A DNA stretch of 34,823 bases from a bacterium (lineage in GTDB: Bacteria > Elusimicrobiota > Elusimicrobia > UBA1565 > UBA9628), in NCBI GenBank assembly GCA_021819565.1, contig JAKAQV010000003.1, positions 1 through 34,823 of the forward strand, written 5' to 3'. A program made the translations under genes and the position numbers. Positions within the stretch are counted from its first letter, which is position 1; every line of letters begins with the position of its first letter. The notes beneath the pieces were generated by a model. That model did no database searches and was not told the origin of the DNA. It saw only the letters and a program-made list of their open reading frames with translations. Shown here one piece after another: positions 7,848-34,823 of this stretch.

Positions 7848-7856
7848 GAAAATAGT

Positions 7857-8232: not shown

Positions 8233-8236
8233 AATT

Positions 8237-8245: not shown

Positions 8246-8262
8246 AATAGTAGAATATTGCG

Positions 8263-14068: not shown

Positions 14069-14347
14069 GAGCTTAGTGTAACATGAGACTCTTAAAAAGT
14101 CAAGGACGAACGGAGAGTCACGGAAAGTAACAGAAAGTAACAGAAAGAAAATGAAAGCAACGGAAAGTAACGGAAAGTTACAGAAAGTAACGGAAGGTAA
14201 CGGAAAGTTTGGATTGCTTTCCTTGGCTTTCCGTTTCTTGCCGTTGTCTTCCGTTTCTGTCCGTGACTTGCCGTGTCTTTCCGCTGCTTGCCGTGTCTTT
14301 CCGTTGCCTTCCGTTACTGGCTCTACGCCGGGCTTAGCGGTAAATTT
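14069..14347. repeat. Decamer hairpin repeat, copy B, with both TA flanks
   Basis: This is the complete form of the element. From left to right it holds the TA promoter flank for pair 1 (14069-14103), the linker GGACGAACGGAGAGTCAC, then left-arm decamers, the core with GGAAAGTTTGGATTG at 14202, the right arm, and the GGCTCTACGCCGGGCTTAGC flank that contains the toxin 2 stop. It differs from copies A and C by only a handful of bases across the core and right arm. It has one more AGAAAGTAAC unit on the left than they do. Confidence 0.9.
14075..14103 (-). promoter_or_regulatory. TA pair 1 promoter with overlapping palindrome
   Basis: On the minus strand: TTGACT (14103-14098), a 17-bp spacer and TACACT (14080-14075). 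The predicted start coincides with the A of the antitoxin ATG at 14068. An imperfect palindrome GACTCTTAAAAAGTC (14087-14101 on the plus strand) overlaps the -35 and spacer and could be an operator. The same promoter is present upstream of TA pair 2. Confidence 0.72.
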
Positions 14348-14588
14348 CTCTTCGGTGCCCTATGGAGAGAATGACCAGCAGTCGCTCAGAGTCATTGATC
14401 GCGTAGATGACGCGGTAATCTCCGATGCGGATCCGGTAGCGCTCGGTATGGCGAAGTTTTTGGGAGCCGTGGGGACGGGGCTCCATAGCCAAGGCCAAAA
14501 GGCGGGGTTCTATTCGGTTGCGAATGGAGAGGGGGAGACTCGCGAACTCGGACTGGGCGCTTCGGACAATCGAGACCCGATAACTCAC
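14334..14588 (-). CDS. RelE/ParE-type toxin (TA pair 2)
   Basis: This 84-residue toxin has the classical RelE/ParE pattern: YRVSIVRSAQSEFASLP at the N-terminus, the SQKLRHTERYRIRIGDYRV core near residue 42, then IYAINDSERLLVILSIGHR and the end REIYR. The basic residues around RYRIRIGDYRVIY correspond to the catalytic and RNA-binding face of RelE. The GTG start at 14588-14586 overlaps the antitoxin stop (GTGA). Apart from the shared superfamily fold and the last four residues it has little similarity to toxin 1. It ends inside the hairpin copy B flank. Confidence 0.88.
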   Translation of the reverse strand: MSYRVSIVRSAQSEFASLPLSIRNRIEPRLLALAMEPRPHGSQKLRHTERYRIRIGDYRVIYAINDSERLLVILSIGHRREIYR

Positions 14589-14797
14589 GGGGCGCGTTTT
14601 GTTTTTAGAGAGGAAAGAAATTGTTTGAGCGGGCGCGTCGGCTCTTTTAAGCGGCTTTCCGTGATGGCCAGATCAATAAGGTCTTCGCGGAGGCTTTCAT
14701 CTTGGACGATGTGGACGAAGACTTCATCTTGGACGCGCCGTGGCAATGCTCGAAAAGCCGTGAGGAACACATTGGCGGTCGCTTGTTCCGTGGTCAT
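14585..14797 (-). CDS. Antitoxin of TA pair 2 (helical, RelB-like)
   Basis: This 70-residue, probably all-helical protein has segments LTAFRALPRRVQDEVFVHIV and DESLREDLIDLAITESRL, a pattern often found in small proteins directly upstream of RelE toxins. It has no visible relation to the beta-rich antitoxin 1. The ATG at 14797 follows the same promoter as pair 1 with the same 6-nt gap after the -10, so it is also predicted to be leaderless. It overlaps the toxin GTG by 4 bp. Family naming is uncertain; the role follows from context. Confidence 0.75.
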   Translation of the reverse strand: MTTEQATANVFLTAFRALPRRVQDEVFVHIVQDESLREDLIDLAITESRLKEPTRPLKQFLSSLKTKRAP

Positions 14798-15046
14798 GAG
14801 CCTAGTGTAACATGAGACTCTTAAAAAGTCAAGGACGAACGGAGAGTCACGGAAAGCAGCAGAAAGAAGATGAAAGTAACAGAAAGTAACAGAAAGTTAC
14901 GGAAAGTAACGGAAGGTAACGGAAAGTTTGGATTGCTTTCCTTGGCTTTCCGTTACTTGCCGTTGCCTTCCGTTTCTGTCCGTGACTTGCCGTGTCTTTC
15001 CGCTGCTTGCCGTGTCTTTCCGTTGCCTTCCGTTGCCTTCTGTTTC
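14798..15046. repeat. Decamer hairpin repeat, copy C, fused to the giant gene
   Basis: The left side carries the TA promoter flank and linker as in copy B, then decamers, the core with GGAAAGTTTGGATTG at 14921 and the right arm. The right flank GGCTCTACGCC seen in A and B is missing. After two GTTGCCTTCC units the sequence degrades into TGTTTCCTTCTTTTCTCC and becomes the signal-peptide coding region of the giant gene. An ATG (14870) at the same relative place as in A and B opens the frame that continues into the giant protein. Confidence 0.88.
14804..14832 (-). promoter_or_regulatory. TA pair 2 promoter, near-identical to that of pair 1
   Basis: On the minus strand: TTGACT (14832-14827), a 17-bp spacer and TACACT (14809-14804), then 6 nt to the ATG at 14797. 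The GACTCTTAAAAAGTC palindrome is repeated. Promoter and putative operator are shared although the two antitoxins are of different types. Confidence 0.72.
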
Positions 15047-18000
15047 CTTCTTTTCTCCGTCCTCGCCTTTTTCCCCGGCAAAGCGGGGGCGCAGCAGTTG
15101 ATTTCCAATTTCACCACGGGAGATGTTTCATGGCCGGGCAGCCGGCACGTTTTTTATGATCACGGAATCGGGCAAGTTTTTGTCTTTTATTCCCAGCCCT
15201 ACGGCATCGCCTACCGCTCTTATAATTTCAGTTCCTGGTCGAATGAATCTGTTGTTATCTCAACAGGCCAAGCCCTGGCTCTTGACCCCACCACCACTGG
15301 TCCTGGCGGTAGCGCGCCCACGGACACAAACACGATGTATTCCAGCGTCTATTATGACCAAGCCTCAAGCTCGGTCTACGTTATCGCCTCGGATCCCAAC
15401 GCTCTCCTTGAGAATAAATCAGGCCCAGGATGCACCAATGGATATGCGAACAGCGTCTTTCTCATTCACGGAACTATTAATTCGAACGGGTCTATTTCCT
15501 GGGGGAGCCTTGTTCAAAAAGCTCCCTCGGCTCAGGTGGCCAACTCCAATTCAGGAGGAGGTGAATGCGCCCCCGGGAGAAGCGTCGGAATTACCTACAT
15601 GAAGGGCGCTCCGTCAGGCCTTATTTCCTTTGTCTGCGATGCCCAGGCGGTCAATGGCTGCGGAGCCGGAAACCCGACGTATAAAACTTCGATTATTGGC
15701 ATGTATGGATTAAGCACCGCGTTTTCCGGCGGAACCGCTTGGTCTGCCGACCACAATGATGGCAATAGAGCCAGCAACACGTCTCCCGCCGAACTTAATT
15801 ACGGAGAAATCGTTCCAGTCAATGACGTCTCCGGAGGCGGAAGTTATGACTTCATGGTGTCTCAGGAATTTCAATATGGATCAGCTGTTATCAACTCTTA
15901 TCAATACACGGGCACTTATAACTCTAATGAGTTGACCACGGGTGGAATAGCTTCTTTTAACGCTTTAGTGACCGACTCCATGGCGCCCCAGCCGGATAAT
16001 GTTTCTTCCCTGGCCGCTCTTGGCTATATAGATAGTTTGGGTGAGCTAAGCTATTACGAGCGCACGGGCTTTCAAACATGGGGGACTAAAGCCGTGATAG
16101 ATGGATGCGGGGCTTCAATTACCACTCCCTGCGGAAACCCCAGCACGGTTTACGTTGTCAATTCGCCCGTGGTTGGAGGCGATGCGGCGTACACGATTTA
16201 TCTTTCTAGTTTTGGCGCGGTCAATTATGCCTACGGCGCTATCGCCAACGGACCATTCACTATTTCTTCTAACTGGCAGCCGGCGGCTGCGGAAACGGTG
16301 CCTCAAGCTCCGGCATATATCGTCGCGCCAGACCCAATTCCAGTGGTCATGGACAATACCTCGGGCGGGCTTGATTTTGAGTTTATTCCCACGGATGCGC
16401 TTGGACCGCCGACGATCACTTCTATTTCTTCATCGCCGACCACCGCTCCATTTTCAACGAATGCTTACGATCTTGTCCTGACCGGAACGAATTTCATGCA
16501 GGAGAGTAGCATCCTTCAATCCCAGGTCGGGATTCTTCTTGGAGGAGGCGCTCAGGGCAATATCACGGTGACTTCCACGACCTATGTCAGTTCGACTCAA
16601 ATTAGGGCCTCCATCGTTATCAACAGCAATGGCGGCAGCCCCTATGATATCCAGGTCAGCAATCCCGATGGCAGAAGCTCTATTGATTCCAAGGCTCTTT
16701 CTTTGCCTCTCCCCGTGGTCACAAGCGTGTCCGAGGATTTTGCCAATCATCATTTGAGCAGTCCAAAATATGATCTTGTCATCAGCGGCTCCGGATTTGA
16801 GGATTGGGCAAGCCCCGGTCCCGTTTCGGTGACTCTTCTTAAAGGAGGGCTCACCCAAACGGAAATCAGCGTCACTTCTACTACTTATACGAGTCAGAAT
16901 CAGTTGCGCGCCTCTATCGTTTTAAACCCGCCCATTTCAGGCGGCCCTTATGACGTAAAAGTGACAAATTCTGACGGGCAAACCTATACCTTGAGCGCGG
17001 CTTATTCCATTCCCGCGCCGACATTGACGGGAATTGTGATCAATGGTGAAGCGGTTCCGTCGGGAGGAATTGAGCCCAATATTCCGGATTGCGCTGGGAA
17101 TAGTTGCCCTTCGACGCCATCTGGACGGCCGACAAGACAACTAGTGGTCTCGGGAGCCAATTTTGAAGACTGGACAAGCCCGATTGCCTCGGTCACGATC
17201 TCGGGCGTTTTTGTCGATTCGGTCACTTATTCCAATTCAGGACTTTTTACCGCCAATATCAACGTGACGACAGCGGCGGCATCGGGGCTTGAGAGCGTCA
17301 CGGTCATCAACGCCGACGGCCAAGCCTCAAGCACGATCGCTTCGACTTTTACCGTGACGGTTCCCACGGCGGCGGTGAGTTATCCGACCACTGTTTCCGG
17401 GACGATTTACAATCCCAACACCGCGATTTATTATTCATCGGGAGTTCCCAATATTTTGGGAACGGCGTCTTATTCTCCGGCTTCGGGGCAAACCTTCCTC
17501 TTGACGAGTCAAGCCGAAATCGAGCAATTGAGCGGAACCAACGCCGGTTATTTCTGGAACGGGGCCAATTTCCAGGCGGTTTCGGCTTTTACCGCTCCGG
17601 CTTCCGAAACGGAATGGCAGCCGGCCAGCGCGGCCACCCCGTGGAATTACAGCGGTTGGACTAACAACAACACCGATCAAGCCGATGGAACTTCTTATAA
17701 CATCGCTTGGCGGGGACTGACGGCGGATGAGGGCTGGAGCTATCCCATTTCAAGCTTTACCTTGACGATCGATAAATCCCCGCCGGTGTCGAGCGTTTTG
17801 ACGCCGGTCGGAGGCACTGTCGTCAATTCCCAGCCGGATATTCAAATTCAATCGGTGGACGCGGGCGTTGGCGTGTCTCAGATGTGGATCTTGGCCGAAG
17901 ACACCAATTCGTTTTCCTGGACCGGGTCTTCCTGGAGCGCGATTCCCGGAGCGATGTTTATTTCGACCAACGGCGCGGGCGGAGGATCGCCGAATATGGT

Positions 18001-21000
18001 TTTCTCTCCTCCGGAGGAAAATCCGGGGATTTTGACCTTTAACTCGGCTACGACCATTCAAGTTCCGGCTTGGAAAAATGGAGCCGAGTACAGCATTCAG
18101 GCCGCGGGACAAGACGCCTTGGGTCATTACCAAGCCGCGTCCGCGATCAACTTTTTTTATGATGTCAATAACCCCACGGCGACGATTATCTCTCCCGTCA
18201 TTAGCGCCAACTCCGCCAGTCCCACCTGGCTTAACTCTCTCACGAATATTTCAGGCTCTATTTCGGATTTAGACATCATCAGTGGAAACACGATTTTCTC
18301 GGTCAATAACACCGTCGCCATTCAGATTAAGGATTTGACGAATGGAAACTTTTTTAACGGTTCAAGCTCGTTAATTGAAGGCTCAAGCCAAACCTTCATC
18401 TCCACCTCGGCCGTTCCCTCCAACGAAAATGGCGCCGATCCCTTTATGTATTTTTATTACACGACCACCAACGGCTCTTGGGCCGACGCCATTTCCGGCA
18501 TTCCCTTTCAAAACGGGCATGACTATCGCATCGCGATGTATGCCTGTAACCCCACGGAGCCGATTGGCTCGCCAGCTTCTCCGGGTTGCGACGGCGGAGA
18601 CGGAACCACCGCTTCTGATTCGGATGGCAGCGCGACTTCCCAAGCCCCGGCTTTTATCGGCTATTTTAATTTCAATAATAATCCGCCGACTTCCGCGGTC
18701 ACTTTTCCGACGACTTTAGCCACCCCCAACGCTTTTGGCGATGATAATTCTCAAACGGCGTCTTCTTTGTCGATGCTATGGGGAACGGCTTCGGCGGCAA
18801 CGGACGTTTCCGGAATTTTCGCCGAAGAATACACGCTCCAAGACACGATTACCGGCGATTATTGGTGCAATCCCGCTTCCACCGCGCCCAATAGCTCTTG
18901 TTACGGGGCAGCCTCGGCCGGGTTTATCGCGATTGGCGTCGGCCAGACCGCGCCCTGGATTATTTCTCAAACGACGACGACCCCGTCTTGGGCAGGTTGG
19001 GAAATCAACAATATTCCGTTTCTTAACGGCCATTCTTTTCAACTGATTACCAAGGCGGTCGACACTGCGGGAAACGTTCAAGTCGTTTATTCGACGACCA
19101 ATTTTATCTATGACTCTTCCGCCCCAATTACGGCCGCGAAATATCCGTTAAACAATGACGCCTATTCCGTTCAGGTCGGAACCATCTCAGGAACAGCTCT
19201 GGACCAGCCGCAACCGTTTAACTCCGGAATTTTCGCGAACTTCTTGGGAATTCAAAGGCAATCGGACGGCTCCTGGTGGACGACCGGAGGCTGGACTCAA
19301 ACGCGCTCGGATATCGGGCAGCCTTCGGTCAACTTAAATACCTCGGCCAGCCCCAATACCTGGCTTTATTCTCTTCCCGCCGGTTTTTGGACCTCGATTA
19401 GTCTTGCGGATCGGTTCAAAATCTATTCCTGGAGCGAGGACGAAGTTCAAAACGAAACGCTGTCTTCGACTCCCTCGGTTGAAAATATCGAGTCCTCAAC
19501 GACGCTTAAGGATATTTTTAACTATGACACCGAGGCTCCGACTTCCACCATCGTTTCGCCCAGCGATCAAATTTGGTATTCCAATGTCGCGCCGACTAAT
19601 TTGCCCGATTTGACCGGAACCGCGACGGACAATCCGGCTTATCCGGGACCTCCGGCGGTCAGCTCCGCCGATGCCGCCGGAATGTCTTCCGTGAGCGTCG
19701 AGATCCGCGATGAAAACACCTGCCCGAATTGTCTTTACTGGGATGACGCGACGAAGTCTTGGGTGACAAGTTCCATTTTTAACCCGACCACGTTAACGAT
19801 CAATAATCCCAATCCATCAAATTGGAGCTTTCCAACTTCTAATTTAGAGCCGAATTTAACCAGCGGGCACACCTATCGCGTTCGAACGCAAGGCATTGAC
19901 GCGGCCTTGGATCAAAACGGAAATTCAGCCGGCAATACCGAAAATCCCGCTAATATCCTTCAAAGCCAACAAACTACGCCGCCCTATTCCGATACGCATT
20001 TCTTCTTCTGGGATTCGGAAGCCCCCAATTCCGTGATTACCGTTCCGAGTAATGGGCAGACCTTGAACAGTCTCACCACTATTTCAGGAACAGTTCAGGA
20101 TAACCCCCAGCCGTTTAATTCGGGTCTGGGCGGAGTCTTCGTCACGATGTGCGAGGATTCCGGCTCCGGAACTTGCGCGGCCAACACTTATTATGGCGGA
20201 AACCCCCTGACCGTGGACTTGGCGGGAGAGTGGCCGCTTAACGAGGGAACCGGCTCTACCGTGAAAGATATTTCGGGCAATGGAAATAACGGGACTATTT
20301 ATGGCGGATACACCTGGGTTTCGGGCGTCCCGGGGCTTGAAAGCGCGGCGGTCAACCTCAACGGAACCAGCGGCGACATCAGCACTCCCTATGTTCAAAA
20401 CAGCGTGACGGCTTATTCAATCTCTTTATGGGTCAATACCACCGATAGCGCCAGCAAATTGGCCCTTGTTCAAGACCGGGGATCGGGCGCGGGGCTTAGC
20501 TTGACCTTGGGAATGGGTACCGACGGCGGCGGAAACGGCGGTCCGGGTTTGCCCTTTTTTGAGTTAGACAGCAATGGGACCGATATCGGCATTGCGGCTT
20601 CGACTAAGACAATTGACGACGGGGTTTGGCACAATGTCATCGGAGTTTGGAGCGCGCCGAGCGGAACAGGGATTGCCGCCACGCAATTTACTCTCTATGT
20701 GGACGGGACCCAGGTGACGACGACGGCTGCGTCCATTGGATCTCAAAGTTCGCCTCTGACGGGTTCCGGAGGAACTCAAATTGGTTACGATGCCGCCTGG
20801 GGCACCTATGTCGCGGGAACCTTTGATGACGTTCGCATTTATACGCAAGCCCTTTCCCAGACCGACATTACCGCCTTGGCTAATAAGCAGACTTCTCTCG
20901 GAGCTTCTTTTAGCTCGGCCAGCCCCTATTGGATACTGGCGACGACGACTTCTTATTCCAATGGAGTTTACGACTGGATATTTCCCGTCGCCCAAAATAC

Positions 21001-24000
21001 GTTCTCAAATAACACGACCTACGACATTATCGTTCAATCATCGGACACGGTCAATAATTTAGAGACCGCGGTTTCAAATGCCGTCGCCAATTCGGATCAC
21101 ATTGAGTTCACTTTCGCGACTCCTCCGCCGACTTCTTCAATTGTCGTTCCGCCTTCCGGAATCCCCAATTACGCGAAAGACGGTTCCCTGGGATCGAGCC
21201 AGCTTTTAACCACTTTTTCCGGAGCGGCGGCCAACGCGACCAGCGTGCAACTTTTAGTTAACGAAATTAAAAATAATTACTATTGGACCGGATCATCATG
21301 GACGGTGAACAATCCCGGCGGTTGCGGAAATTGGGTCAATTCCAGTTCTTTGACGGGTTCGGGCGGCAGCCAAGGGTGGACTTATAATTGGCCGGCCTCA
21401 AGCGACTGGATTGGCAATTCCAGCTATACGGTAACCGTTTGCGCGATTCAAAACGCGACGCTCCAAAGCGGGACCTTAGCCTCGGCGGAATTCATCATTG
21501 AGTCCACCGCTCCGACGGTCGCGGTAGATTCCCCTCCTGGAACTTCAACCGACACCTTGACGAGCTTAAGCGGAACGGCGACCGAGGTTCCTCCCAGTTC
21601 CATCAGTCAAATCGCTTTTTCCGTGCAAAGAAATTTTGACGGGAAATACTGGGATGTCGACAAGGACACTTTTGATTTAACGAGTTATTCCACTTCGGCG
21701 GCCATTGTAGCCGTGACTTCAGACGGGCTTAATTTTTCATCCGCGACGGCTTTGGGAAATGCCATGTGGCAGGACGGATTTTCTTATACCATTCAAATGC
21801 ACGGAACCGATTTGGCCGGAAACATCGCCACGGTCAACAGCCGCTCTTTCCTTTATGACGTGTCCTTGCCCACCGCCGGGGTTCAAGAGCCCATTACCGG
21901 CGTTTACGCGAATTTGCTCAACACCTTAAACGGAACCGCCGTTGACCCCAATCCCAATCCCGGAAACGTCAACTCCGCGCCTTCCGGCATCGGCTCGGTT
22001 CAGTTTTCGCTTGAGTATTTAAACAGTGGATATTGTTATAACGGCGGGTCAAATTTTAACGCGATTTGTCCCTCTTGGAACAGCGCTTCCTTCTATCAAT
22101 CCTCTGTCGGGCAGGCGACCTGGAGCTTTACCTCTGCCGGGCTTAACTCCGCAGCTTTGGACGGAAATTATTTGATCTTGGTTCGGGCGCAAGACAACGC
22201 GGGAAATCTCCAAAACGGCTTCCAGGTCGGCATCTCGTCTTTGACTTTCCGCGTGGATAAAACCGCGCCCAATATCGTCATCACCCAGCCTTTTAGCTTT
22301 TACTATCAGCCCAATGGGGTCGGCATCAACACCGGAGGCGTTGGCATTCAAGGAACGGCGGTTGACCCGATTACCAATGGGGTCGCCTCCGGTCTTTTGA
22401 CCTCAGGCATCGACATTCAATTGTGGTATTTACAAGCCGGAACCAGTTATTACTGGCAGGGAAGCCCGGGGCAAGGCGCGGCCGGGTGGACGCCTTCGCC
22501 GTCCACTTTCACCGCCAATGGAACTTCTTGGAATTCTCCGTCCGCGCCCGATGCCGGAGATTATTTGGCGGTTGGGCCGCAAGAATTTTTCACCTGGGCC
22601 CAGGCCCATGACGCTTCCACCTTGGCCAACGGCCAGGTTTCTCCTTCCACCGGAAATCTCAGCGCGTTTACGCCCATTGACGCCTTTATCGTCGACGGCG
22701 TTCCGCCGGTGTCCTCCATGACGGTTCCGACCAACAACACCTTCGTCAATTCCTTGACTCAGATTTCCGGAACGGCGGAGGCGCAACTGGCCGGAATTTC
22801 AAATGTTCAGGTTCGCATTACGACTAATCCCGCGACCGGGCCGGACTGGAACGGGTCGGCCTGGACTTTTACGGGGGTTCCTATTTATAATGCGGCGAGT
22901 TTCACCGCTCAAACCGGACCCACGACTTCGACACTGACCTGGACTTATTCGAGCTTGACCGGCGCATTTCAAACCGGCACGGTCTATGATATTTTCTCGC
23001 AAGCGACCGATAATGCCGGAAACGTTCAGACAACGCCGACGGAATTTGTCATCACATATGACACCGAACCGCCCAATTTGGCGGTTAGTTTCCCCGCTCA
23101 GCCGCCGGCGGTGCCGCCCTACTCCAACAATTTTGAATCAACCCGCATTTCCACCTGCGTTTATGGGACAGTGTCTTCTCCCGGGACCAATCCTCCGGGA
23201 GTTTCCCAGGTCTGGATCGCGATTTCCTCCGGCTCCAACGATAACGTTTGGTGGAATGACGCGACCCAGGCTTTTGATCTGAATAATTCCGCCATTCAAT
23301 GGTCAACCCAGGTCTATCTTGGGGGAAATTCCTGGAGCTATTGCCCTGCGGGCTTTGAGCAATCCAAAAACACATTTTCAAGCGGCATTACCTATACGGT
23401 GTTTACCTACGCCAAAGACAATGCCGGAAATACCACAAACTTTGTCTCAAACCCGACTTCATCAAACGCTGGGCAAACCCAGGCTTTCCTTTATGACGCG
23501 TCTACTCCGACAGCGACGGTCAGTTTCCCAGCCAATAACACCAGCACCAATACCTGGGCCGCAATCTCGGGCAATGCGAGCGATCCCTTGCCGTCTCCTT
23601 CAGGGGTGTCTCAAGTTTGGCTGGCGGTTCAATGTCTTTCAGGTCCCGCTTGTGCGACGGGTTCTGCCTGGTGGGATTGGACGACGGGAGCCTTCAATAC
23701 TTCCTTGTCTAATCCCTCGCCGACGGCTCCGCCTTTTAACGCCGCCTGGACCTTGGTCTATTCGACGACGACCCAGGATTTGGGAAGCGTGGTTTGGTCA
23801 ACTCCCACGCCGGCGGGAATGGCAGTGTCGTCAAGCGTCTATCAGGCAACAGCCTTGGCTATTGACCAAGCAACCAACGTCCAGCAAAACGCCTCTGTCT
23901 TGGGCGCGGGTTCGCAATTTAGATTCGACAATCAGGCGCCTTTAATCGCCTCCACCGAACCGGTGACCGCAAGTTATCTCAATTTGGCCAATCTCGCTTT

Positions 24001-27000: not shown

Positions 27001-30000
27001 GTTTATTGGGACAGACTGGGTTAATGAAGAGCAGTATTATGTCAAGGCTCGCGCGACTGACAACGCTTTAAACGCGGCCGGAGTCATCACCGGAAACACG
27101 ACTTCCGTTTTTACCAACGGTCAAAATTTGATGAGTTTCATCATCCAAAACACTCCGCCGGTTTCTCAATTAATTACGCCGCCGCCGGGAAGCTACATTC
27201 AAGACTTTACTTCCATTTCCGGAACCGCCAATGTGGGCTTGGCCGGAGGCGATACCTATTATCTTTTCATCAGCACCCAGGACAGTTCCGGAAACGCCTA
27301 TTACTGGACCGGATCGGCCTGGGGCGCCGCCAATGTCTTCTACCAACTTCCGGTTCAGGTCACGGGTTCAACCGGAACGGTCAATTGGGCTTATCCCGGC
27401 TCCCCGGCTCTTCCAGGCGAAAACACGCCGACGACCAATCAACCCAATGGCACGGTTTTCTCTATCGCTTTTCAGGCTAAAGACAACGCCGGTAATTTAG
27501 AGACGCCGACGACCTCTCAGGTCATCTTGGATAAAACCGGCCCTAATGTCGCGATCTCAACTCCGATGGCCTCCGCGCCGGACTACGGCTCGACTAGGCT
27601 TTTGAGCGTGGTCAATGGGACCGCTTTTGAGTCGGTCGCCCCTGTGACCCAGGTCTTGGTTCAACTCAACGATATTTCCGATAGCCCGTCCTTAATGTGG
27701 GACGGTTCCACCTGGGGTGTCTATTCATCGACCTATCTTGTCGTCAGTGGAACTCAGCCATGGACCTTTAATTCTCCGCCCTGGATTAATAATAAGGAAT
27801 ATGTGGCATCGGTCGAAGCCTATGACGCGGCGGGAAATTTATCGCCGACCGGGCAAACCAATCAGCAGGTGACATTTATTTATGATGTCAACGCCCCAAC
27901 GTCTACCATTGCGGTTCCGTCTCTTCCTTTTTATCCATCAGGTCAACCTGCCATTCTAAACGGGCAGGCTTTCGACTGGGTCAGCTATCCCTCAACTCAA
28001 ACCATGTCGGGGCTCAATAATGTTCAAGTTTCCATCACTCAAAATAATGTCAACGGATGTTCTTTGGAATATTGGGATGGAACGGCTTGGCAGCCGACTG
28101 GCGGGCCTTATTGGCGCGTTGTCTCGACTAATACCGCCAACCCCGCGACCTGGAATTATCCACCGTCGAATCCCTCGGGAGATACGATTCCGACTTGGGC
28201 CAATGGCTGCAATTATACCGTTCAAACCCGCGCGACGGACAATTCTCAGAATGTCGAGGCTTTGTCTCATCAGCCAGCCAAGAGCTTTACCTACGACAAT
28301 CAGCCGCCGACATTCGCGATCTTAAGCCCCGCGTATTCATATGTCCAGGGCGTTTCTTCGATCAATGGGACTGCTAATGACCCCATCAGCTCGATGAATG
28401 GCGGGGAAGCGGCGGTCTATATGGCGGTTCAAAGACAAGACGGGAAATTCTGGGATGGGACAGGGTTTAATATTTCCTGCACCGGATCGGCGCTGTCTTC
28501 TTGCTCAAACGGTTCCGGCGGAACTTCGGATCCCTTTTTGAGCGCGGCTTTGACTTCCATCTTTGTTTCCTCGGCAAACTGGGCCTTAACCGGCAGCACG
28601 ATGACCAACCTCAGCGCTTATTTCAACACCACGGCGACTTCCCTTCAATTCTCGCTTTACGCTTCCGTCATTGACAATGCCGGAAACATCACGCGTTCGA
28701 CGACCACGGTTCCAGCTTTGGGCGCGGATTTCATCTTTACCGTTGATCACTTCCCACCAGTTTCAATTACGACATATCCCGCCGCGGCTTATTTGCAGGG
28801 AAATGTCGTTCCCGTCGCCGGAACCGCCGAGGATGATTTAAACGGAGCGGGGGTCGCTTCCGTTGGAATTGAAGCCCTTCAGGTCAATTCCGCCGGAACT
28901 ACTAATTACTGGAATTTCCTTGGTTCTTGGCAGACGACCGATCCGGGATATACCAGCGTTTCCTTGCTTGGAGGGGTTCCCGGCGGGACCCTGGCTTCCT
29001 GGAGCGCCTCAACCAATTCTCTTCCAAGTTCGGCCTTTGCGGATGGATATCTCTATCACATCGTTTCCCAGGCCGAAGATTTGTCCAATCCGCCCAATAT
29101 CCAGGTCAATTTAACGACTATCTCATTCATCGTGGACGATGACACGCCAACGGTTTCGATGGTGACGCCGACTCCTCCGCAAATTTATATCAGCACTTCT
29201 AATTTCGCGTTTTCCTCCGGCACCGTGGTTGATCCCTTAGTCGGCGGCGATATCCCTTCGGGCGTGGCTAATGTCTTCTTGACGGTTTATGATATTAGTT
29301 CCAATACCTGGTGGAACGGAAGCGGTTGGCAAACGGCTTCAAGCACGCAAACGGCTAATCTCTATCAAAGCTCATGGACATATACCCATTTCCCGACGGA
29401 TTGGACTCAAGGGTACTCTCCCTCGGACGGCGACCGCTATCGGGTGAACGTTTGGGCGGTGGACCGCGCGGGAAATAATGGTTCTCTCGCGTTTTCAACA
29501 TCCGTTGTCTTGACGATGGACGTGACGCCGCCCTTGGCGCAAGTGACTTCTCCCGCGGGAGGCTCGATTGCCTCAAGCCTGGATACGATTTCTGGAACCG
29601 CACAAGATTTCTTGGTCAACAATTCTTCTTCCGGCGTTCAATCCGTGGCGTTGAGCATTTTCGATAAAGGCGGCGGCACGGGAGATCCTAATATCAATAA
29701 ATACTGGAATCAGGCGAGCGGGGTTTGGTCTTCTAATCAGGTCTGGAACACGACCGCGTTTACGGCTCCGAATTGGGCGTTTAATTCGTCTAATCTCAAT
29801 TCAACGCTGACGGTTTATTCTCAATATGTTTTGACTTCGAGCGCGACCGATATCGCCGGAAATTCCCAAGCGGTCATTTCTTCGGGAGTTGTGACCTACG
29901 AGCCGCCTCCAGCGGTTACGGCAATTACCTATCCCGTGAGCTTGAATTATTACAGTTCGCTTCTGACAATTCAGGGAACTGCCAATGCCAACACCGAGTC

Positions 30001-33000
30001 AAACAATATTCAAATTGAACGTCTTGACACCGCTCAATGTTGGACCGGATCGGCCTGGGGATCTTGTCCCGATGCGCGTTCCATTAGCCCCTCTTCTCCG
30101 ACCTGGAGCTATCCCTCGGGGTCTGACATCATTCCGGCCTGGGTCAATAACACCAGTTACACGATTACTGAAACCGGGTTTAATACCGCCGGAATCGCCG
30201 AGAGCCCAAATCAGCAATTGGAATTTTATATCGATCAGTCTTCCCCGATTTCGCGCGTGAACTTCCCGGCGAACGCCTCTTATATCAACGCCGTTCCGAC
30301 TTTGTCCGGAACCGCCCAGGACGCCATCATTAATGGCATAGACTCCGGCATCAAAAACCCCGGCGGAATCAATATCACTTTGCAGAGAACCGATAATAAC
30401 GATTACTGGAATCAGGCGACCAGCACCTGGGTGGCTTCAATTACTCCTTTTACCGATACCGCGACTTATGACGCGGCATCGACCACCTGGAGTTTTGTCG
30501 CCTCTAGCCCGACACTGGCCTGGCAAGACGGCTTATCTTATAAGCTCTCGGTTAATTCCGAAGACAATGCCCAACCGACGCCCAATGTTGAGGCCATCAG
30601 CAGTCTTAATACCGTCAATTTCACATATGACACGACGCCTCCGGGAATTTTCGTTCAGTATCCAAACGCGGCGCGGGAGTCGAGTTTAGCGACTCTTTAC
30701 GGAACAGCCTCGGTGCCCAGTTTTGGCGCGCTCCAAAATGTCCAGGTGGCGATTTACTCCCAGGCCAATGCCGCTTGGGCTAATCCCGGAGGCAATCTTA
30801 ACTTTACCGAACCCACTGAAAATCTTGCTTTCTTTAGCGCGAACACAACCGGTGGTCCGACGAGTTTTAATTGGACGGTTTCAAGCGGCATTCCCTGGGT
30901 CGCGGGAGACACCTATACCGTGGTCGCTCGGGCCTTAGATGAGGCGGGGAATTATTCCGTTCCTTATTCCACCTCTCCTAATTTCGTCTACGACAATTTG
31001 CCTCCGATTACCGCCGTGATCTTGCCGGCCAATGGCGGCTTTATCAATTCCTTGCCGATCATCTCTGGAACCGCGGCCGATCAACCAAGCGTGAACCCCA
31101 GCGTTTTGAGCGAAACCGACGTTCAGATTAAGCGTTTGGATAACGGACAATACTGGAGCGGTTCGGGCTGGGTTTCGGCCGCCACTTTGCAATCAACCTT
31201 GGCTCAAATTGAAATCTGGCAGGATATTTATCCATCGACCTGGAACGTGACGCCTGCCGATATGCCAACCGTCGCCAATGGCGGCCTTGTCTCCGGAACC
31301 TCCTATTACATTACGGCGCGCTCGATAGACAGCGCAAGCCCCGCCAACACCGAGGCCTTTGGGAACGCTTTCTCTTCGACCTTTACCTTTAGCACGACGA
31401 CTCCCACTTCTTTTGTCGCGATCCCCAATCAGCCTTTTTATAATAATCTGACCTTTATCTCCGGATCCGGAAGCGCCGCTTTCCAGAATGTGGCTTTATC
31501 GACGATCGCGCTTGAAATTCAGGACGTGACGGGCTCCGCTTGTTATGACAGCTCTAACAATCTCTTCGATCTAAGTTGTCCCGTTTGGTTTGGGGCCCAA
31601 GGCTCCACAAATTCTTGGACTTATACCTTGCCGTCCAATCCCTGGACCCAGGCGCATCAATACATCGTCTATTCTTCCGCGACCGATGTCGCGGGAAACG
31701 TTCAGGCTTTAATTAGCTCTTCCACCTTCGCATATGACATAGAGGCGCCGACGGCGGCGGTGATTGTCGCTCATTATATCAACGCTTCGGTGGCATCCAT
31801 TGGCGGCACCGCTTTTGACAGCCCGGCCGGAGTGTCTACGCTTCAAATTGCGGTTTCATCGAATGCCGGCGCGGCGGGTTCTTGGCTGAGCGGAAAAAAT
31901 GGGACTTATACCGCCAACGGTCCCGTTTATCTCGCGACTTCGACTTTTGTTTTCGGAAGTCCCGACAACTGGACCGAGGCCACCGCGAATTTAAATCTCC
32001 TGACGGGAGACACCTACTATATCCAAATCTTCGAAGAAGACAATGCCGGAAATTCAAGGACTCAGGATTTCCTCAACGCTTTTGTCTATGACACGGCGAC
32101 GCCTTCTATCGCGATCACCCAGCCGGACAAACTTTACTACAACAATCCCATCTCCATTACGGGGACCTCGGGAGAAATTCCGCCGGGATATGTCACCGCG
32201 GTTCAAATCCGGATTTCAACCGCGACCCAGGATTGGACCGGGACGGCTTGGACGAATTCAACTCCTTATTGGCTGACAGTTCCGGGGAGTCTTAATTCCT
32301 GGGTTTATACTTCGACTCCGCCCTGGGTGAGCGGTCAAACCTATACCATCTATGCGCAGGCCACCGATGTCGCGGGAAACCCCTCTTCCCTTCAAACTTA
32401 TTCCTTTACATATGACGTCAGCAATCCCTTGGCCTCCATGGTTTTCCCATCATCAGCCCGAACCGGAATCGCGGGAAATAATCTCTTGAGCGTCCAGCAA
32501 TCGACGGGAACGGCGGTGGACCCGGCGGGCAACCCGTTGACCTTGGTCCAGGTTCGGGTCGAGCAGGTTTCCCCGACGCCGGCCGCTTTCTGGGATCCTT
32601 CCAACGGCACTTTTGACATTTTGCCGGCTAACGAAGACACGGCGTGGTTTGGAGCGGCGACTTCGGATAATTGGGCCAGTTGGTCGGTCTCAAGCGCGGC
32701 GGTTTTTGCCGCGTTAAATAGCGGAGGGCAGTATCAATTTAGTTCTCGCGCTTTTGACGCCGCCGGAAACGTCTCGACGGTTTATTCAACGATGACGACG
32801 ATTTACGATATCTATCCTCCCGAGACGGGCGTGACGGATCCAGCCAACGGAATTTCGACTAATTCCTGGGTCGCGCTCGTGGGAACAGCCGTTGATTTTA
32901 CCAATGTCCCCGGCCCGAATAATATTAATTTAGGAACAGTTCAGCGCGTTCAGGTTCAGATCGAGAGATTGGATACCAAGCAGTACTGGAATACCGGGTC

Positions 33001-34823
33001 CTGGGTTTCCGCCTATACCCTTGATTCAGCTAACGGCCAGGTCAATGTTTACCCTAGTTCTTGGACAATTTCTCCCTCCAATTTGCCCAGCGGAGCCAAC
33101 CTTCCGGCGGGAACTTCCTTCTATATAACCTCCTCAGGTTTTGATAACGCCTTCCCCGCGCCGGGCAACCAGGAATCTTTTAATAGTCCACGGGGTTCGA
33201 CCTTTACCTACAGCAATTCTGCCCCAACGACATCCATTTCTTCTCCCAACAAACCGTTTTACAATTCGCTCCTGACCTTGTCGGGAGCGTCTCAAGCCGT
33301 TTTCTCATATGTCCCCGTTTCCACGGTGGCCATTGAAATTGAAGATTCCGGGACTGGGCAGTATTATGATCTGGCGACCAGCACCTTTGATTTGAGCTCT
33401 CCAAATTGGTTTGCCGCCGGCGGAACGACCACGAGCTGGAATTATTCTTTCGCTTCTCAGCCTTGGGAACAGGCGCACACCTACGTCGTCTATTCATCCG
33501 CGACCGACGTCGCCGGAAATATCGAGACCGCCATTAGCTCTTATTCGTTTACCTACGCGGTCGAAGAGCCGACGATCACGATGAACTCTTCTCAATATAT
33601 CAACGCGACCGTCGCCAATCTCGCTTCCGGAGTTGGAGTCGACAGCCCGGCGGGAATTTCCGGAACGAATCTCCAGATTGCGGTTTCATCCGCCGCCGGA
33701 ATCGGCGGCTGGTGGAACGGGACCAGTTATACCGGAAGCGCGCCAAGCTATTATCCCGCGAGCTTCGTTCCCAATCCGGGAACTTCTATTTCTTGGAGTT
33801 TCTCAACCTCCACAATTCTCTTGGTTAATTCCCAGACCTATCTGATTCAAAGTCAGGCCACCAACCAAGCGGGAACTCTTCGAGTTCAAAATCTTGGAAA
33901 CGTTACCTACGACGATCAGCCGCCGGTGGCTGGGATTACTCTTCCGGTCAATGGAGACTATTACGACAGCCTCGGCACGATTTCAGGAACGAGCGCGGAT
34001 AATGTCGGAGTTTCGACGATTAGCTTGAGCATTCAAGATTTAACGGTAGGCGGCTGTTATAATCCCGCCAGCGGTTTTGGAGGAACATGCCCGGGATATT
34101 TCCCGGCTCAAGGAACTGTCGGGGCCTGGACTTATTCCGGAATTCCCTGGTCCAATGGCCACAGCTACTTAGTTGTTTCAGAAGCGACGGATTTGGCCGG
34201 AAACGTTCAAAATGTGTTTACCGTGGGAGTGAGCTCGAACTCATTTGAGTTTGACACCACGGGACCGACGACCAAGATTACCGTGCCAGGGACCTTAAAC
34301 AGCGATCAAAACGCGAGTTTGACGGAAATTCAAGGCACCGCGGCGGGGGCCAACGGCGTGCCTCTTCAAACCGTCTGGGTTAGATTCTTCAATAACGGGT
34401 TGGGAGATTATTGGGACAATGCGACGCAGGGCTGGGTCAGCCAAACGACTCTTCCGCCGGATCAGGCGTGGTTTCCTTCCAGCGCCACGGTTTCCAATTG
34501 GACGCAGTGGCATGCGACATTTACTTTCGCTACCGGAACTCAATATTCAGTCGAGGCGATGGCCCAAGATCAGGCGGGAAATTACTCTCTCGCAATCTCA
34601 ACCGTTAATTTCCTTTATGATGCCGTTCCGCCGGAGAGTTTTGTCGTGGCTCCGCCGGGAGGGTTCGTGAATTCTCTTTCTCAAATCAATGGAACCGCGA
34701 CCGACTCTCAAGCCCTGGGGCTGGGAGGTTCGGGAGTGGCTTCCGTGTCCTTGGCGGTTGAAGACCTCAAAAACGGAAAGTGGTGGGATGGAGGCTCGGG
34801 AGCTTTTGACGGGGGTAGCCCGC
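14870..34823 (+). CDS. Giant secreted multidomain Ig-like repeat protein, 3' end outside the window
   Basis: One reading frame runs from ATG 14870 to the window edge without a stop: 6,651 codons, still open. I translated it through to confirm the frame. Residues 1-74 come from hairpin copy C and end in a signal-peptide-like stretch (SVAFCFLLFSVLAFF, then PGKAGA and a probable cut before QQ at 75). Next come a propeller-like region (about 75-512), three IPT/TIG-like domains (about 513-832) and 43 Ig-like units. The mature protein is rich in Ser, Thr, Asn, Gly and Trp, as in extracellular adhesins. No catalytic domain is seen. The start is uncertain: TTG codons at 14987 and 15023 would give shorter leaders, and the true start may have been altered by the repeat insertion. 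No clear plus-strand promoter or strong ribosome-binding site is present. Likely role: surface adhesion or cell contact (inference). Confidence 0.88.
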   Translation, partial: MKVTESNRKLRKVTEGNGKFGLLSLAFRYLPLPSVSVRDLPCLSAACRVFPLPSVAFCFLLFSVLAFFPGKAGAQQLISNFTTGDVSWPGSRHVFYDHGIGQVFVFYSQPYGIAYRSYNFSSWSNESVVISTGQALALDPTTTGPGGSAPTDTNTMYSSVYYDQASSSVYVIASDPNALLENKSGPGCTNGYANSVFLIHGTINSNGSISWGSLVQKAPSAQVANSNSGGGECAPGRSVGITYMKGAPSGLISFVCDAQAVNGCGAGNPTYKTSIIGMYGLSTAFSGGTAWSADHNDGNRASNTSPAELNYGEIVPVNDVSGGGSYDFMVSQEFQYGSAVINSYQYTGTYNSNELTTGGIASFNALVTDSMAPQPDNVSSLAALGYIDSLGELSYYERTGFQTWGTKAVIDGCGASITTPCGNPSTVYVVNSPVVGGDAAYTIYLSSFGAVNYAYGAIANGPFTISSNWQPAAAETVPQAPAYIVAPDPIPVVMDNTSGGLDFEFIPTDALGPPTITSISSSPTTAPFSTNAYDLVLTGTNFMQESSILQSQVGILLGGGAQGNITVTSTTYVSSTQIRASIVINSNGGSPYDIQVSNPDGRSSIDSKALSLPLPVVTSVSEDFANHHLSSPKYDLVISGSGFEDWASPGPVSVTLLKGGLTQTEISVTSTTYTSQNQLRASIVLNPPISGGPYDVKVTNSDGQTYTLSAAYSIPAPTLTGIVINGEAVPSGGIEPNIPDCAGNSCPSTPSGRPTRQLVVSGANFEDWTSPIASVTISGVFVDSVTYSNSGLFTANINVTTAAASGLESVTVINADGQASSTIASTFTVTVPTAAVSYPTTVSGTIYNPNTAIYYSSGVPNILGTASYSPASGQTFLLTSQAEIEQLSGTNAGYFWNGANFQAVSAFTAPASETEWQPASAATPWNYSGWTNNNTDQADGTSYNIAWRGLTADEGWSYPISSFTLTIDKSPPVSSVLTPVGGTVVNSQPDIQIQSVDAGVGVSQMWILAEDTNSFSWTGSSWSAIPGAMFISTNGAGGGSPNMVFSPPEENPGILTFNSATTIQVPAWKNGAEYSIQAAGQDALGHYQAASAINFFYDVNNPTATIISPVISANSASPTWLNSLTNISGSISDLDIISGNTIFSVNNTVAIQIKDLTNGNFFNGSSSLIEGSSQTFISTSAVPSNENGADPFMYFYYTTTNGSWADAISGIPFQNGHDYRIAMYACNPTEPIGSPASPGCDGGDGTTASDSDGSATSQAPAFIGYFNFNNNPPTSAVTFPTTLATPNAFGDDNSQTASSLSMLWGTASAATDVSGIFAEEYTLQDTITGDYWCNPASTAPNSSCYGAASAGFIAIGVGQTAPWIISQTTTTPSWAGWEINNIPFLNGHSFQLITKAVDTAGNVQVVYSTTNFIYDSSAPITAAKYPLNNDAYSVQVGTISGTALDQPQPFNSGIFANFLGIQRQSDGSWWTTGGWTQTRSDIGQPSVNLNTSASPNTWLYSLPAGFWTSISLADRFKIYSWSEDEVQNETLSSTPSVENIESSTTLKDIFNYDTEAPTSTIVSPSDQIWYSNVAPTNLPDLTGTATDNPAYPGPPAVSSADAAGMSSVSVEIRDENTCPNCLYWDDATKSWVTSSIFNPTTLTINNPNPSNWSFPTSNLEPNLTSGHTYRVRTQGIDAALDQNGNSAGNTENPANILQSQQTTPPYSDTHFFFWDSEAPNSVITVPSNGQTLNSLTTISGTVQDNPQPFNSGLGGVFVTMCEDSGSGTCAANTYYGGNPLTVDLAGEWPLNEGTGSTVKDISGNGNNGTIYGGYTWVSGVPGLESAAVNLNGTSGDISTPYVQNSVTAYSISLWVNTTDSASKLALVQDRGSGAGLSLTLGMGTDGGGNGGPGLPFFELDSNGTDIGIAASTKTIDDGVWHNVIGVWSAPSGTGIAATQFTLYVDGTQVTTTAASIGSQSSPLTGSGGTQIGYDAAWGTYVAGTFDDVRIYTQALSQTDITALANKQTSLGASFSSASPYWILATTTSYSNGVYDWIFPVAQNTFSNNTTYDIIVQSSDTVNNLETAVSNAVANSDHIEFTFATPPPTSSIVVPPSGIPNYAKDGSLGSSQLLTTFSGAAANATSVQLLVNEIKNNYYWTGSSWTVNNPGGCGNWVNSSSLTGSGGSQGWTYNWPASSDWIGNSSYTVTVCAIQNATLQSGTLASAEFIIESTAPTVAVDSPPGTSTDTLTSLSGTATEVPPSSISQIAFSVQRNFDGKYWDVDKDTFDLTSYSTSAAIVAVTSDGLNFSSATALGNAMWQDGFSYTIQMHGTDLAGNIATVNSRSFLYDVSLPTAGVQEPITGVYANLLNTLNGTAVDPNPNPGNVNSAPSGIGSVQFSLEYLNSGYCYNGGSNFNAICPSWNSASFYQSSVGQATWSFTSAGLNSAALDGNYLILVRAQDNAGNLQNGFQVGISSLTFRVDKTAPNIVITQPFSFYYQPNGVGINTGGVGIQGTAVDPITNGVASGLLTSGIDIQLWYLQAGTSYYWQGSPGQGAAGWTPSPSTFTANGTSWNSPSAPDAGDYLAVGPQEFFTWAQAHDASTLANGQVSPSTGNLSAFTPIDAFIVDGVPPVSSMTVPTNNTFVNSLTQISGTAEAQLAGISNVQVRITTNPATGPDWNGSAWTFTGVPIYNAASFTAQTGPTTSTLTWTYSSLTGAFQTGTVYDIFSQATDNAGNVQTTPTEFVITYDTEPPNLAVSFPAQPPAVPPYSNNFESTRISTCVYGTVSSPGTNPPGVSQVWIAISSGSNDNVWWNDATQAFDLNNSAIQWSTQVYLGGNSWSYCPAGFEQSKNTFSSGITYTVFTYAKDNAGNTTNFVSNPTSSNAGQTQAFLYDASTPTATVSFPANNTSTNTWAAISGNASDPLPSPSGVSQVWLAVQCLSGPACATGSAWWDWTTGAFNTSLSNPSPTAPPFNAAWTLVYSTTTQDLGSVVWSTPTPAGMAVSSSVYQATALAIDQATNVQQNASVLGAGSQFRFDNQAPLIASTEPVTASYLNLANLALIAGTANDATTGNSGLQSVQILLKAQSLQAYWNGSRTGVFSSDWDTSGTKYNDWQPATGLLQWTTTYPPMSDVDSMQFSLWVRANDNAGNVGTMPSASVGLPTDTQLDNNQNADGSPVLEFIYDNTPPISRATYPPTYFNAIPTTISGTATDPGLYQPSGVNDVEILLERSDGSYWNMVSQSWQGTSPGFTNVSRVGLTNWTFSNFSGAFADGYQYAVNPQATDNATNVETAYSTHDFIVDLSTPISAPVWPPNNGFANNVSSITGTADDFFCDLNPTLCPSSGRDFQSGISTIEVAIQDLTQGTTWWNGTSFVSSAVPIWSTATFTGASSGTWVYNLPGGALTNEHKFASSAYAIDKAGNIEEVNLTTNTFIYDTTPPVSIATAPAGSITSVSAISGTAYAISPDQLQVVGVALQETSGCNGGGTPAHSNEYWNGSSWQTGQVYVDSGVIGGFVALSSTYAWAMNTAGIAFDNNANYQVTSRALDKAGNLETAHITYDTTFCLGVPPSNPTITQPAVGGQYQTLASAVNTFSGGGSNLDSSNPNGIEIQLQRLTSPTSYWYDPTELWSNDSSTYTPTAPINATTWNYGLSTPGAPYQIQNASYSLTVMGYNSADLPGTPAQVTFVIDNVKPQSFIATPVPNYCPVSGTNACFNTMPFISGTSIDPGNVAPPSVTQSLVNVRVKNLYNNDYWNSQAFVGSVQEFNPGVFSFSGNPPTYSWSTSTLAGLGLQDGITYEILAHAADLAGNDTLTESNMANFTFLYDTSPPTAYIATPQASQVYLGVTPITGTAFDPAGANGNHLKSDLAKVEISIKSISGNACWSDSNDQFNVACPSFTVVSGTASWSYNNPNLNGALTNDEQYAVTAQATDNAGNVQSVYTVPLSSLTFAFDNVPPNVGIVLPQNNAAYSCAAGSLNCLTGASAINGTASSPDAALYPGNNALQDAQVVIWFLADPTNYTLSGGTSYYYTGVVGSNGTKFSSSTTEGASWQAANSTATWDFLFIGTDWVNEEQYYVKARATDNALNAAGVITGNTTSVFTNGQNLMSFIIQNTPPVSQLITPPPGSYIQDFTSISGTANVGLAGGDTYYLFISTQDSSGNAYYWTGSAWGAANVFYQLPVQVTGSTGTVNWAYPGSPALPGENTPTTNQPNGTVFSIAFQAKDNAGNLETPTTSQVILDKTGPNVAISTPMASAPDYGSTRLLSVVNGTAFESVAPVTQVLVQLNDISDSPSLMWDGSTWGVYSSTYLVVSGTQPWTFNSPPWINNKEYVASVEAYDAAGNLSPTGQTNQQVTFIYDVNAPTSTIAVPSLPFYPSGQPAILNGQAFDWVSYPSTQTMSGLNNVQVSITQNNVNGCSLEYWDGTAWQPTGGPYWRVVSTNTANPATWNYPPSNPSGDTIPTWANGCNYTVQTRATDNSQNVEALSHQPAKSFTYDNQPPTFAILSPAYSYVQGVSSINGTANDPISSMNGGEAAVYMAVQRQDGKFWDGTGFNISCTGSALSSCSNGSGGTSDPFLSAALTSIFVSSANWALTGSTMTNLSAYFNTTATSLQFSLYASVIDNAGNITRSTTTVPALGADFIFTVDHFPPVSITTYPAAAYLQGNVVPVAGTAEDDLNGAGVASVGIEALQVNSAGTTNYWNFLGSWQTTDPGYTSVSLLGGVPGGTLASWSASTNSLPSSAFADGYLYHIVSQAEDLSNPPNIQVNLTTISFIVDDDTPTVSMVTPTPPQIYISTSNFAFSSGTVVDPLVGGDIPSGVANVFLTVYDISSNTWWNGSGWQTASSTQTANLYQSSWTYTHFPTDWTQGYSPSDGDRYRVNVWAVDRAGNNGSLAFSTSVVLTMDVTPPLAQVTSPAGGSIASSLDTISGTAQDFLVNNSSSGVQSVALSIFDKGGGTGDPNINKYWNQASGVWSSNQVWNTTAFTAPNWAFNSSNLNSTLTVYSQYVLTSSATDIAGNSQAVISSGVVTYEPPPAVTAITYPVSLNYYSSLLTIQGTANANTESNNIQIERLDTAQCWTGSAWGSCPDARSISPSSPTWSYPSGSDIIPAWVNNTSYTITETGFNTAGIAESPNQQLEFYIDQSSPISRVNFPANASYINAVPTLSGTAQDAIINGIDSGIKNPGGINITLQRTDNNDYWNQATSTWVASITPFTDTATYDAASTTWSFVASSPTLAWQDGLSYKLSVNSEDNAQPTPNVEAISSLNTVNFTYDTTPPGIFVQYPNAARESSLATLYGTASVPSFGALQNVQVAIYSQANAAWANPGGNLNFTEPTENLAFFSANTTGGPTSFNWTVSSGIPWVAGDTYTVVARALDEAGNYSVPYSTSPNFVYDNLPPITAVILPANGGFINSLPIISGTAADQPSVNPSVLSETDVQIKRLDNGQYWSGSGWVSAATLQSTLAQIEIWQDIYPSTWNVTPADMPTVANGGLVSGTSYYITARSIDSASPANTEAFGNAFSSTFTFSTTTPTSFVAIPNQPFYNNLTFISGSGSAAFQNVALSTIALEIQDVTGSACYDSSNNLFDLSCPVWFGAQGSTNSWTYTLPSNPWTQAHQYIVYSSATDVAGNVQALISSSTFAYDIEAPTAAVIVAHYINASVASIGGTAFDSPAGVSTLQIAVSSNAGAAGSWLSGKNGTYTANGPVYLATSTFVFGSPDNWTEATANLNLLTGDTYYIQIFEEDNAGNSRTQDFLNAFVYDTATPSIAITQPDKLYYNNPISITGTSGEIPPGYVTAVQIRISTATQDWTGTAWTNSTPYWLTVPGSLNSWVYTSTPPWVSGQTYTIYAQATDVAGNPSSLQTYSFTYDVSNPLASMVFPSSARTGIAGNNLLSVQQSTGTAVDPAGNPLTLVQVRVEQVSPTPAAFWDPSNGTFDILPANEDTAWFGAATSDNWASWSVSSAAVFAALNSGGQYQFSSRAFDAAGNVSTVYSTMTTIYDIYPPETGVTDPANGISTNSWVALVGTAVDFTNVPGPNNINLGTVQRVQVQIERLDTKQYWNTGSWVSAYTLDSANGQVNVYPSSWTISPSNLPSGANLPAGTSFYITSSGFDNAFPAPGNQESFNSPRGSTFTYSNSAPTTSISSPNKPFYNSLLTLSGASQAVFSYVPVSTVAIEIEDSGTGQYYDLATSTFDLSSPNWFAAGGTTTSWNYSFASQPWEQAHTYVVYSSATDVAGNIETAISSYSFTYAVEEPTITMNSSQYINATVANLASGVGVDSPAGISGTNLQIAVSSAAGIGGWWNGTSYTGSAPSYYPASFVPNPGTSISWSFSTSTILLVNSQTYLIQSQATNQAGTLRVQNLGNVTYDDQPPVAGITLPVNGDYYDSLGTISGTSADNVGVSTISLSIQDLTVGGCYNPASGFGGTCPGYFPAQGTVGAWTYSGIPWSNGHSYLVVSEATDLAGNVQNVFTVGVSSNSFEFDTTGPTTKITVPGTLNSDQNASLTEIQGTAAGANGVPLQTVWVRFFNNGLGDYWDNATQGWVSQTTLPPDQAWFPSSATVSNWTQWHATFTFATGTQYSVEAMAQDQAGNYSLAISTVNFLYDAVPPESFVVAPPGGFVNSLSQINGTATDSQALGLGGSGVASVSLAVEDLKNGKWWDGGSGAFDGGSP
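15092..16405 (+). other. Giant protein: N-terminal beta-propeller-like region
   Basis: This is about 438 residues directly after the signal peptide. Recurrent strand patterns such as RHVFYDHGIGQVFVFYSQ, GIAYRSYNFSSWS, YSSVYYDQASSSVYVIASD and NSVFLIHGTINSNGSISW resemble sialidase/BNR-type propeller blades. Cys-containing loops (GPGCTNGY, NGCGAGN, DGCGASITTPCGN) may form disulphides. I cannot name a family, and no Asp-box catalytic set is evident. Confidence 0.45.
16406..17365 (+). other. Giant protein: three IPT/TIG-like domains
   Basis: Three successive units start near 16406, 16712 and 17018. Each has the IPT/TIG order: P-x-(I/V/L)-T-S/G opening, a (L/V)V(L/I)(T/S)G(T/S/A)NF-type strand (DLVLTGTNF, DLVISGSGF, QLVVSGANF), and a closing YD(I/V)xV(S/T)N(P/S)DG strand, or VTVINADGQ in the third. 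Units 1 and 2 share the ITVTSTTYVSS / ISVTSTTYTSQ segment, so they arose by duplication. IPT domains are immunoglobulin-like and common in surface proteins. Confidence 0.75.
20213..20890 (+). other. Giant protein: LamG/concanavalin-like domain nested in Ig-like unit 7
   Basis: About 226 residues with the LamG-3 pattern: AGEWPLNEGTGSTVKDISGN at the start (usually WxFDEGSGxxxxDxSGN), NNGTIYGG, AVNLNGTSGDIS, YSISLWVNT, DDGVWHNVIGVW, FTLYVDGTQV and TFDDVRIYTQALSQTDI at the end. These domains bind carbohydrates or proteins. The Ig-like unit is interrupted before the domain and resumes after it (NNTTYDIIVQSSDTVNN). It is the only such domain in the window. Confidence 0.85.
30996..34628 (+). repeat. 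Five-unit super-repeat (two blocks of about 1.82 kb)
   Basis: Units 33-37 (30996-32814) and 38-42 (32815-34628) correspond one to one, with offsets of 1819, 1822, 1824, 1820 and 1843 bp. The match is strong for the first three pairs: VQIKRLDNGQYW versus VQIERLDTKQYW, HQYIVYSSATDVAGN versus HTYVVYSSATDVAGN, and FDSPAGVSTLQIAVSS versus VDSPAGISGTNLQIAVSS. It is weaker for the last two. This indicates duplication of a five-domain block. Confidence 0.7.

Follow-up and report, generated by a model that had tools for sequence, protein, structure and literature searches.

A giant repeat protein gene of an Elusimicrobiota bacterium, with a predicted export leader that may largely derive from a proliferating hairpin

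The window analyzed here is an entire contig (C193) of 34,823 nucleotides from the draft genome of an uncultured Elusimicrobia bacterium (phylum Elusimicrobiota). More than half of it is occupied by a giant open frame that runs off the contig end. Upstream on the same strand are a riboswitch preceded by a promoter-like sequence, a small gene of exported type and a gene for a HEAT-repeat protein. The stretch separating the HEAT gene from the giant gene contains two toxin-antitoxin units on the opposite strand and copies of a hairpin element, the last of which extends into the giant frame (Table 1).

Table 1. Features identified in the window, in order of position.
Feature	Positions	Strand	Basis
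Promoter TTGACA-16-TATACT before the riboswitch	11971-11998	+	Consensus match only
c-di-GMP-I-GGC riboswitch	12022-12096	+	63.3 bits (Rfam gathering threshold 59)
Small exported-type ORF after the riboswitch, conserved in the genus	12105-12626	+	ORF reading, ortholog comparison
HEAT-repeat protein with signal peptide	12746-13399	+	ORF, domain search
Hairpin element copy 1	13392-13580	unstranded	Repeat search
Toxin-antitoxin-like pair 1: RelE/YafQ-like toxin 13593-13868 (weak), small ORF 13865-14068	13593-14068	-	Domain search
Hairpin element copy 2	14109-14319	unstranded	Repeat search
Toxin-antitoxin pair 2: ParE toxin 14334-14588, small ORF 14585-14797	14334-14797	-	Domain search
Hairpin element copy 3, source of the giant gene's ATG and first ~55 codons	14841-15050	unstranded	Repeat search, folding
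Giant open frame, 6,651 codons, running off the contig end	14870-34822	+	Frame reading, selection
Predicted leader, 74 residues, cut probably at GKAGA/QQ	14870-15091	+	Composition, comparison with G001 and G004
Variable head domain, all-beta by prediction	15092-16417	+	Prediction, species comparison
About three IPT/TIG-like segments	16415-17389	+	By eye; no Pfam match
43 Ig-like units, the last partial (cut by the contig end)	17402-34816	+	Iterated HMM profile
LamG-like (Laminin_G_3) domain, inserted in an Ig-like unit	20360-20869	+	Pfam and profile

From its ATG to its last complete codon, one nucleotide before the contig end, the giant frame contains no stop, and at the local base composition the chance of such an open run is about 10^-116. 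A reading of this DNA from sequence alone (hereafter, the sequence-only reading) had described an uninterrupted frame of at least 6,651 codons whose end was not reached, and this frame is confirmed. Comparison with the sister genome G004 covers 6,030 codons at 93% identity (dN/dS 0.09), and comparison with G001 covers 2,102 codons at 88% identity (dN/dS 0.06). By this comparative evidence the frame is under strong purifying selection and behaves like a translated, selected gene.

Four genomes of the same genus hold the giant gene in a conserved neighborhood, and in G004 the ortholog is complete (14,077 aa). Residues 615-6651 encoded in the window align with residues 468-6508 of this protein at 92.6% identity. 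The C-terminus, which the sequence-only reading had placed beyond the window, has a counterpart in the same genome: a 436-residue C-terminal stretch at the end of contig C96 is 97% identical to G004 and, as in G004, is followed by a PAS-GGDEF gene. The join of C193 to C96 is based on synteny, and about 21 kb between them are absent from the draft genome. Given the complete ortholog and the C-terminal counterpart, the true protein is probably about 14,000-14,200 aa long. It was rightly placed among the very large bacterial proteins, but record size was rejected because giants of this order are already known, and the open frame of one relative reaches 14,108 codons. Related open frames of about 11,000-13,000 codons also occur elsewhere in the order, both in further genera of the family and in a different family (G034, G037 and G030).

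Pfam matches in the giant frame are to LamG and to Big_13/Big_3. The iterated profile returned 44 Ig-like hits in the window, two of which are the halves of the unit split by LamG; this leaves 43 units, the number originally counted from the sequence. These units are spaced 132 residues apart and are about 30% identical to one another, and are therefore old. As the array is at the same time 93% identical to that of the sister gene, and the orthologs agree, misassembly is ruled out. For one Ig-like unit, AlphaFold gave a beta-sandwich (pLDDT 93 from a 41-row alignment), and Foldseek found generic beta-sandwich matches only (query-normalized TM-score of at most 0.53 among the matches listed). 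In the G004 protein, about 66 Ig-like units are followed by other sequence, fn3 and a FlgD_ig-like end. The head domain is about 41-64% identical between species versus 88-93% for the Ig body, as if it were diversifying or being exchanged. Its structure prediction (pLDDT 37) yielded no usable model, and its sequence had no match in the PDB.

The export signal and domain mix had been taken to point to surface contact, predation or biofilm function. A giant exported repeat protein is consistent with the predicted signal peptide and the Ig-like array, and a surface role is likely; predation was set aside because nothing in the data supports it. That picture is partly supported, and it lacked two features, the c-di-GMP-I-type riboswitch that heads the cluster and an export signal apparently made largely by the hairpin. 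Elusimicrobiota have been reported to be rich in proteins of more than 5,000 aa (PMC11573180). The protein encoded here exceeds this size, is built of repeats and has a predicted export signal, and is thus a further example of the known giant surface proteins of this phylum. It shares with the huge proteins described from Elusimicrobiota and other bacteria the phylum, the size class and the repeat-built, extracellular type (PMC11573180); what it adds to them is a C-terminus known in full, a likely route of export, a riboswitch and an apparently hairpin-made leader.

The riboswitch lies 2.8 kb upstream of the giant gene and is kept in all five species of the genus (5/5). Beyond the giant gene, the GGDEF protein retains its GGDEF motif. 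To reach the giant gene, a transcript started at the riboswitch promoter would need to run through both antisense toxin-antitoxin units. We consider the riboswitch a candidate second-messenger switch, by which expression of the giant gene is probably tuned by a cyclic dinucleotide.

The hairpin element consists of 10-bp units, with a purine-rich left arm and a pyrimidine-rich right arm. The copy at the giant gene folds far better than shuffled sequences (z -7.5). Unit pairs of the hairpin were matched 136 times in the genome versus once for a reversed control, and a search with the element gave 33 matches in this genome and three in G002; the other 30 relatives searched gave none. Both arms are present in 19 copies, 14 of which encode the N-terminal part of an exported or membrane protein, as judged by composition rather than by a trained signal peptide predictor. 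Along with the giant protein, these are PorV-like proteins (C142, C61, C144 and C156), a type IV pilin (C152), a TadE-like protein (C34), a T2SSF fusion (C194), lipoprotein-like proteins (C20, C48 and C67), other exported proteins (C102 and C28) and a trypsin-like protein (C135). Even 13 of 19 leader copies would have a probability near 10^-5 if, as assumed, one-fifth of gene starts belong to exported proteins. Partial copies form the leaders of two further exported genes (C133 and C40) and occur at two places outside leaders. On C156, other interspersed palindromic repeats are nested within the 10-bp-unit hairpin (L087:4034-4430 and L087:8506-8932).

In the giant gene the hairpin contains the ATG together with the charged region and some of the hydrophobic one, the n-region coming from the left arm and part of the h-region from the right arm. 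Copies 2 and 3 were read in all six frames. Throughout, the first half encodes 8-13 Lys/Arg and has a negative mean hydropathy, and the second half encodes 1-4 Lys/Arg and has a positive mean hydropathy. Since the residues encoded by purine-rich codons are mostly charged or polar and those encoded by pyrimidine-rich codons are mostly hydrophobic, such a hairpin could supply an export leader in any frame, and we propose that this charged-then-hydrophobic reading explains the concentration of hairpins at leaders. A perfect hairpin unit has TAA in every frame. In ten coding copies (596 codons), there are no stops in the used frame and 18 and 17 in the other two, a comparison in which the count for the left arm is biased because each start was set at the first start codon that follows the last stop in frame.

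The leaders of the tested exported proteins are, by ortholog alignment, replaced between species. For all seven hairpin-led proteins tested, the G001-G004 orthologs can be aligned only from near the hairpin end onward and carry other leaders before that point; the pilin orthologs, for example, have leaders such as MKGFTLIELL in place of the hairpin leader. In the sister species, the leaders of the C142 PorV and TadE orthologs hold a different palindrome, AAAAGGGGACTGTCCCCTTTT, which is read as KGTVPFF or RGQSPF. Unrelated palindromes thus came to occupy the same spot.

The main alternative is that hairpins at leaders are purely tolerated: a selfish or slippage-grown repeat would survive where leaders are short, removable and beside intergenic DNA, and the old signal-peptide core would still do the exporting. 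This has close to an even chance of being correct. In the pilin and the TadE-like protein, the hairpin is followed by a hydrophobic segment of their own, so that the hairpin there would be only tolerated, and this explanation may account for both. The last leader residues of the giant protein (VLAFFPGKAGA) still resemble those of its sister (VFAPKPARG), and five of the 19 two-armed copies are not leaders (two in the toxin-antitoxin array of the window, one each on C56 and C33, and a second copy on C156). However, porin-like and lipoprotein-like genes draw their hydrophobic core from the right arm or from sequence running straight out of it, the used frame is kept open, and two unrelated palindrome families converge on one spot. 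We put forward, as a tentative proposal somewhat short of an even chance, that purine-pyrimidine hairpins are portable modules combining a start and a signal peptide, usable on either strand in any frame, and that lineage-specific palindromes have repeatedly replaced leaders across the genus.

The extended signal peptides (ESPR) of large autotransporters have a long n-region before the hydrophobic core. The leader of the giant protein shares this long n-region, but has no Pfam match to ESPR and differs in sequence and secretion route. The Rickettsia palindromic elements are protein-coding palindromes described as lying inside many conserved proteins (Ogata et al., 2000, as reported in PMC2229807). 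Like them, the hairpin is a many-copy palindromic repeat that is read in frame inside proteins and is absent from the same genes in relatives. As far as that account describes the Rickettsia elements, the hairpin differs in composition and in being concentrated at the leaders of exported proteins rather than inside many conserved proteins. For the Yersinia RU-2/YPAL repeat, one case is highlighted, in YPO1552 (Delihas, 2007; PMC2759123), compared with 14 of 19 copies at leaders here, a second palindrome family in the sister species and a frame-independent coding rationale. We found no report of systematic use of palindromes as leaders in the open-access literature. Hairpin leaders are a new version of protein-coding palindromes, and are more surprising than the giant gene itself.

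The C-terminus had been singled out as the place to look for a secretion domain, and it does hold one of FlgD/T9SS-type-A-like character, with both models just under their cut-offs (FlgD_ig, 21 of 27 bits; TIGR04183, 18.2 of 23 bits). As these scores are near misses, with no C-terminal sorting domain over a curated cut-off, we classify the giant protein only as T9SS-like. Another protein of the same genome carries TIGR04183 above the cut-off. Encoded elsewhere in the genome is a SprA/Sov-like protein of 1,918 aa, with an E-value of 4e-28 but 97 of 200 bits, below the curated cut-off; it has no sequence match in the PDB, and the family was matched in 36 of 38 relatives and in none of 14 controls. 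PorV-family proteins are also present, one of which scores well over the cut-off (NF033709, 157 bits versus 90) and matches the solved PorV (PDB 6h3i, E 8e-8). At four loci, a PorV-like gene is paired with a gene whose product has a C-terminal-domain-like end.

According to reviews, T9SS is confined to Bacteroidota (PMC7463736, PMC10202324). The giant protein resembles type A cargo in its Sec-type leader, its C-terminal FlgD/Por-tail-like domain and the PorV and candidate SprA homologs of the genome; it differs in that it occurs outside Bacteroidota, a GldM search with no positive control gave no match and two scores are below their cut-offs. From these likenesses, we propose that its export route resembles type IX secretion. 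Exit by another route, for example through the type II pathway or an outer-membrane channel of unknown kind, with the FlgD-like end as a structural cap, is unlikely: it would fit the sub-threshold scores of both C-terminal-domain models, the type II/IV-pilus-type genes of the genome, and the lack of a match to the type IX motor protein GldM in 18 genomes (the model was likewise silent in the controls, and the search had no positive control), but it leaves aside the SprA-like and PorV-like proteins, the pairing of C-terminal-domain-like ends with PorV-like genes and the one protein that exceeds the TIGR04183 cut-off.

It is very improbable that the giant protein starts downstream of the hairpin and that the hairpin is 5' untranslated region only, as in-frame TTG codons inside the right arm and the regulatory potential of hairpins in 5' regions might suggest, because there is no in-frame ATG or GTG between hairpin and mature part, later starts would lose the charged n-region, and the other coding copies too have an ATG in or at the left arm and an open frame.

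Overall, we consider it likely that the window holds the 5' half of a gene for a rod-like surface protein of about 14,000 residues, with T9SS-like export, tuning by a riboswitch and a leader largely written by the hairpin. Sec would carry the protein across the inner membrane by means of its N-terminal leader, which would then be cut off. The FlgD/T9SS-A-like C-terminal domain would route it through a SprA/Sov-like outer-membrane channel with PorV-type shuttles. Outside the cell, the Ig-like array may form a long stalk bearing the fast-changing head domain and the LamG module, which may serve in contact with surfaces, polymers or cells. A cyclic dinucleotide, acting on the riboswitch that heads the cluster, would tune expression. 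The leader would be largely the work of a proliferating purine-pyrimidine hairpin, which on either strand and in any frame would encode a Lys/Arg-rich stretch and then a Phe/Leu/Val/Ser-rich stretch. By landing at the start of an exported gene, it would leave a usable export signal, and copies within genes would be lost and those at leaders kept.

How new secretion signals originate is an old question. In this one genome about a dozen natural cases can be compared with sister genes that bear other leaders, allowing a direct test of whether export leaders arise from repeat DNA. Beyond this, the gene represents a giant surface protein of the Elusimicrobiota whose sequence is complete in a sister species, together with a proposed type IX-like export route outside Bacteroidota and a candidate second-messenger switch.

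The region from the HEAT gene to the giant gene (13392-14840; also L057, L060, L062 and L063) contains antisense cassettes whose content varies by species. These are ParE- and RelE-like pairs in the genome of the window, HicAB in G002 and G004, and tRNA genes in G001, G003 and G004. An integron origin of the toxin-antitoxin cassettes was rejected, as integron integrase gave no match over the cut-off in five genomes. Elsewhere in the window is a class A RNase P RNA (7855-8229, minus strand), and the mechanically called ORF opposite it (7856-8272) is probably spurious. Identical promoter-like sites (TTGACT-17-TACACT, minus strand) occur inside the repeat at 14832-14804 and 14103-14075, a few bases before each toxin-antitoxin pair, and mRNA from these sites would be nearly leaderless. 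In G004, HicAB is present in 858-bp tandem copies, and a copy of the 5' end of the giant gene itself forms part of the repeated segment.
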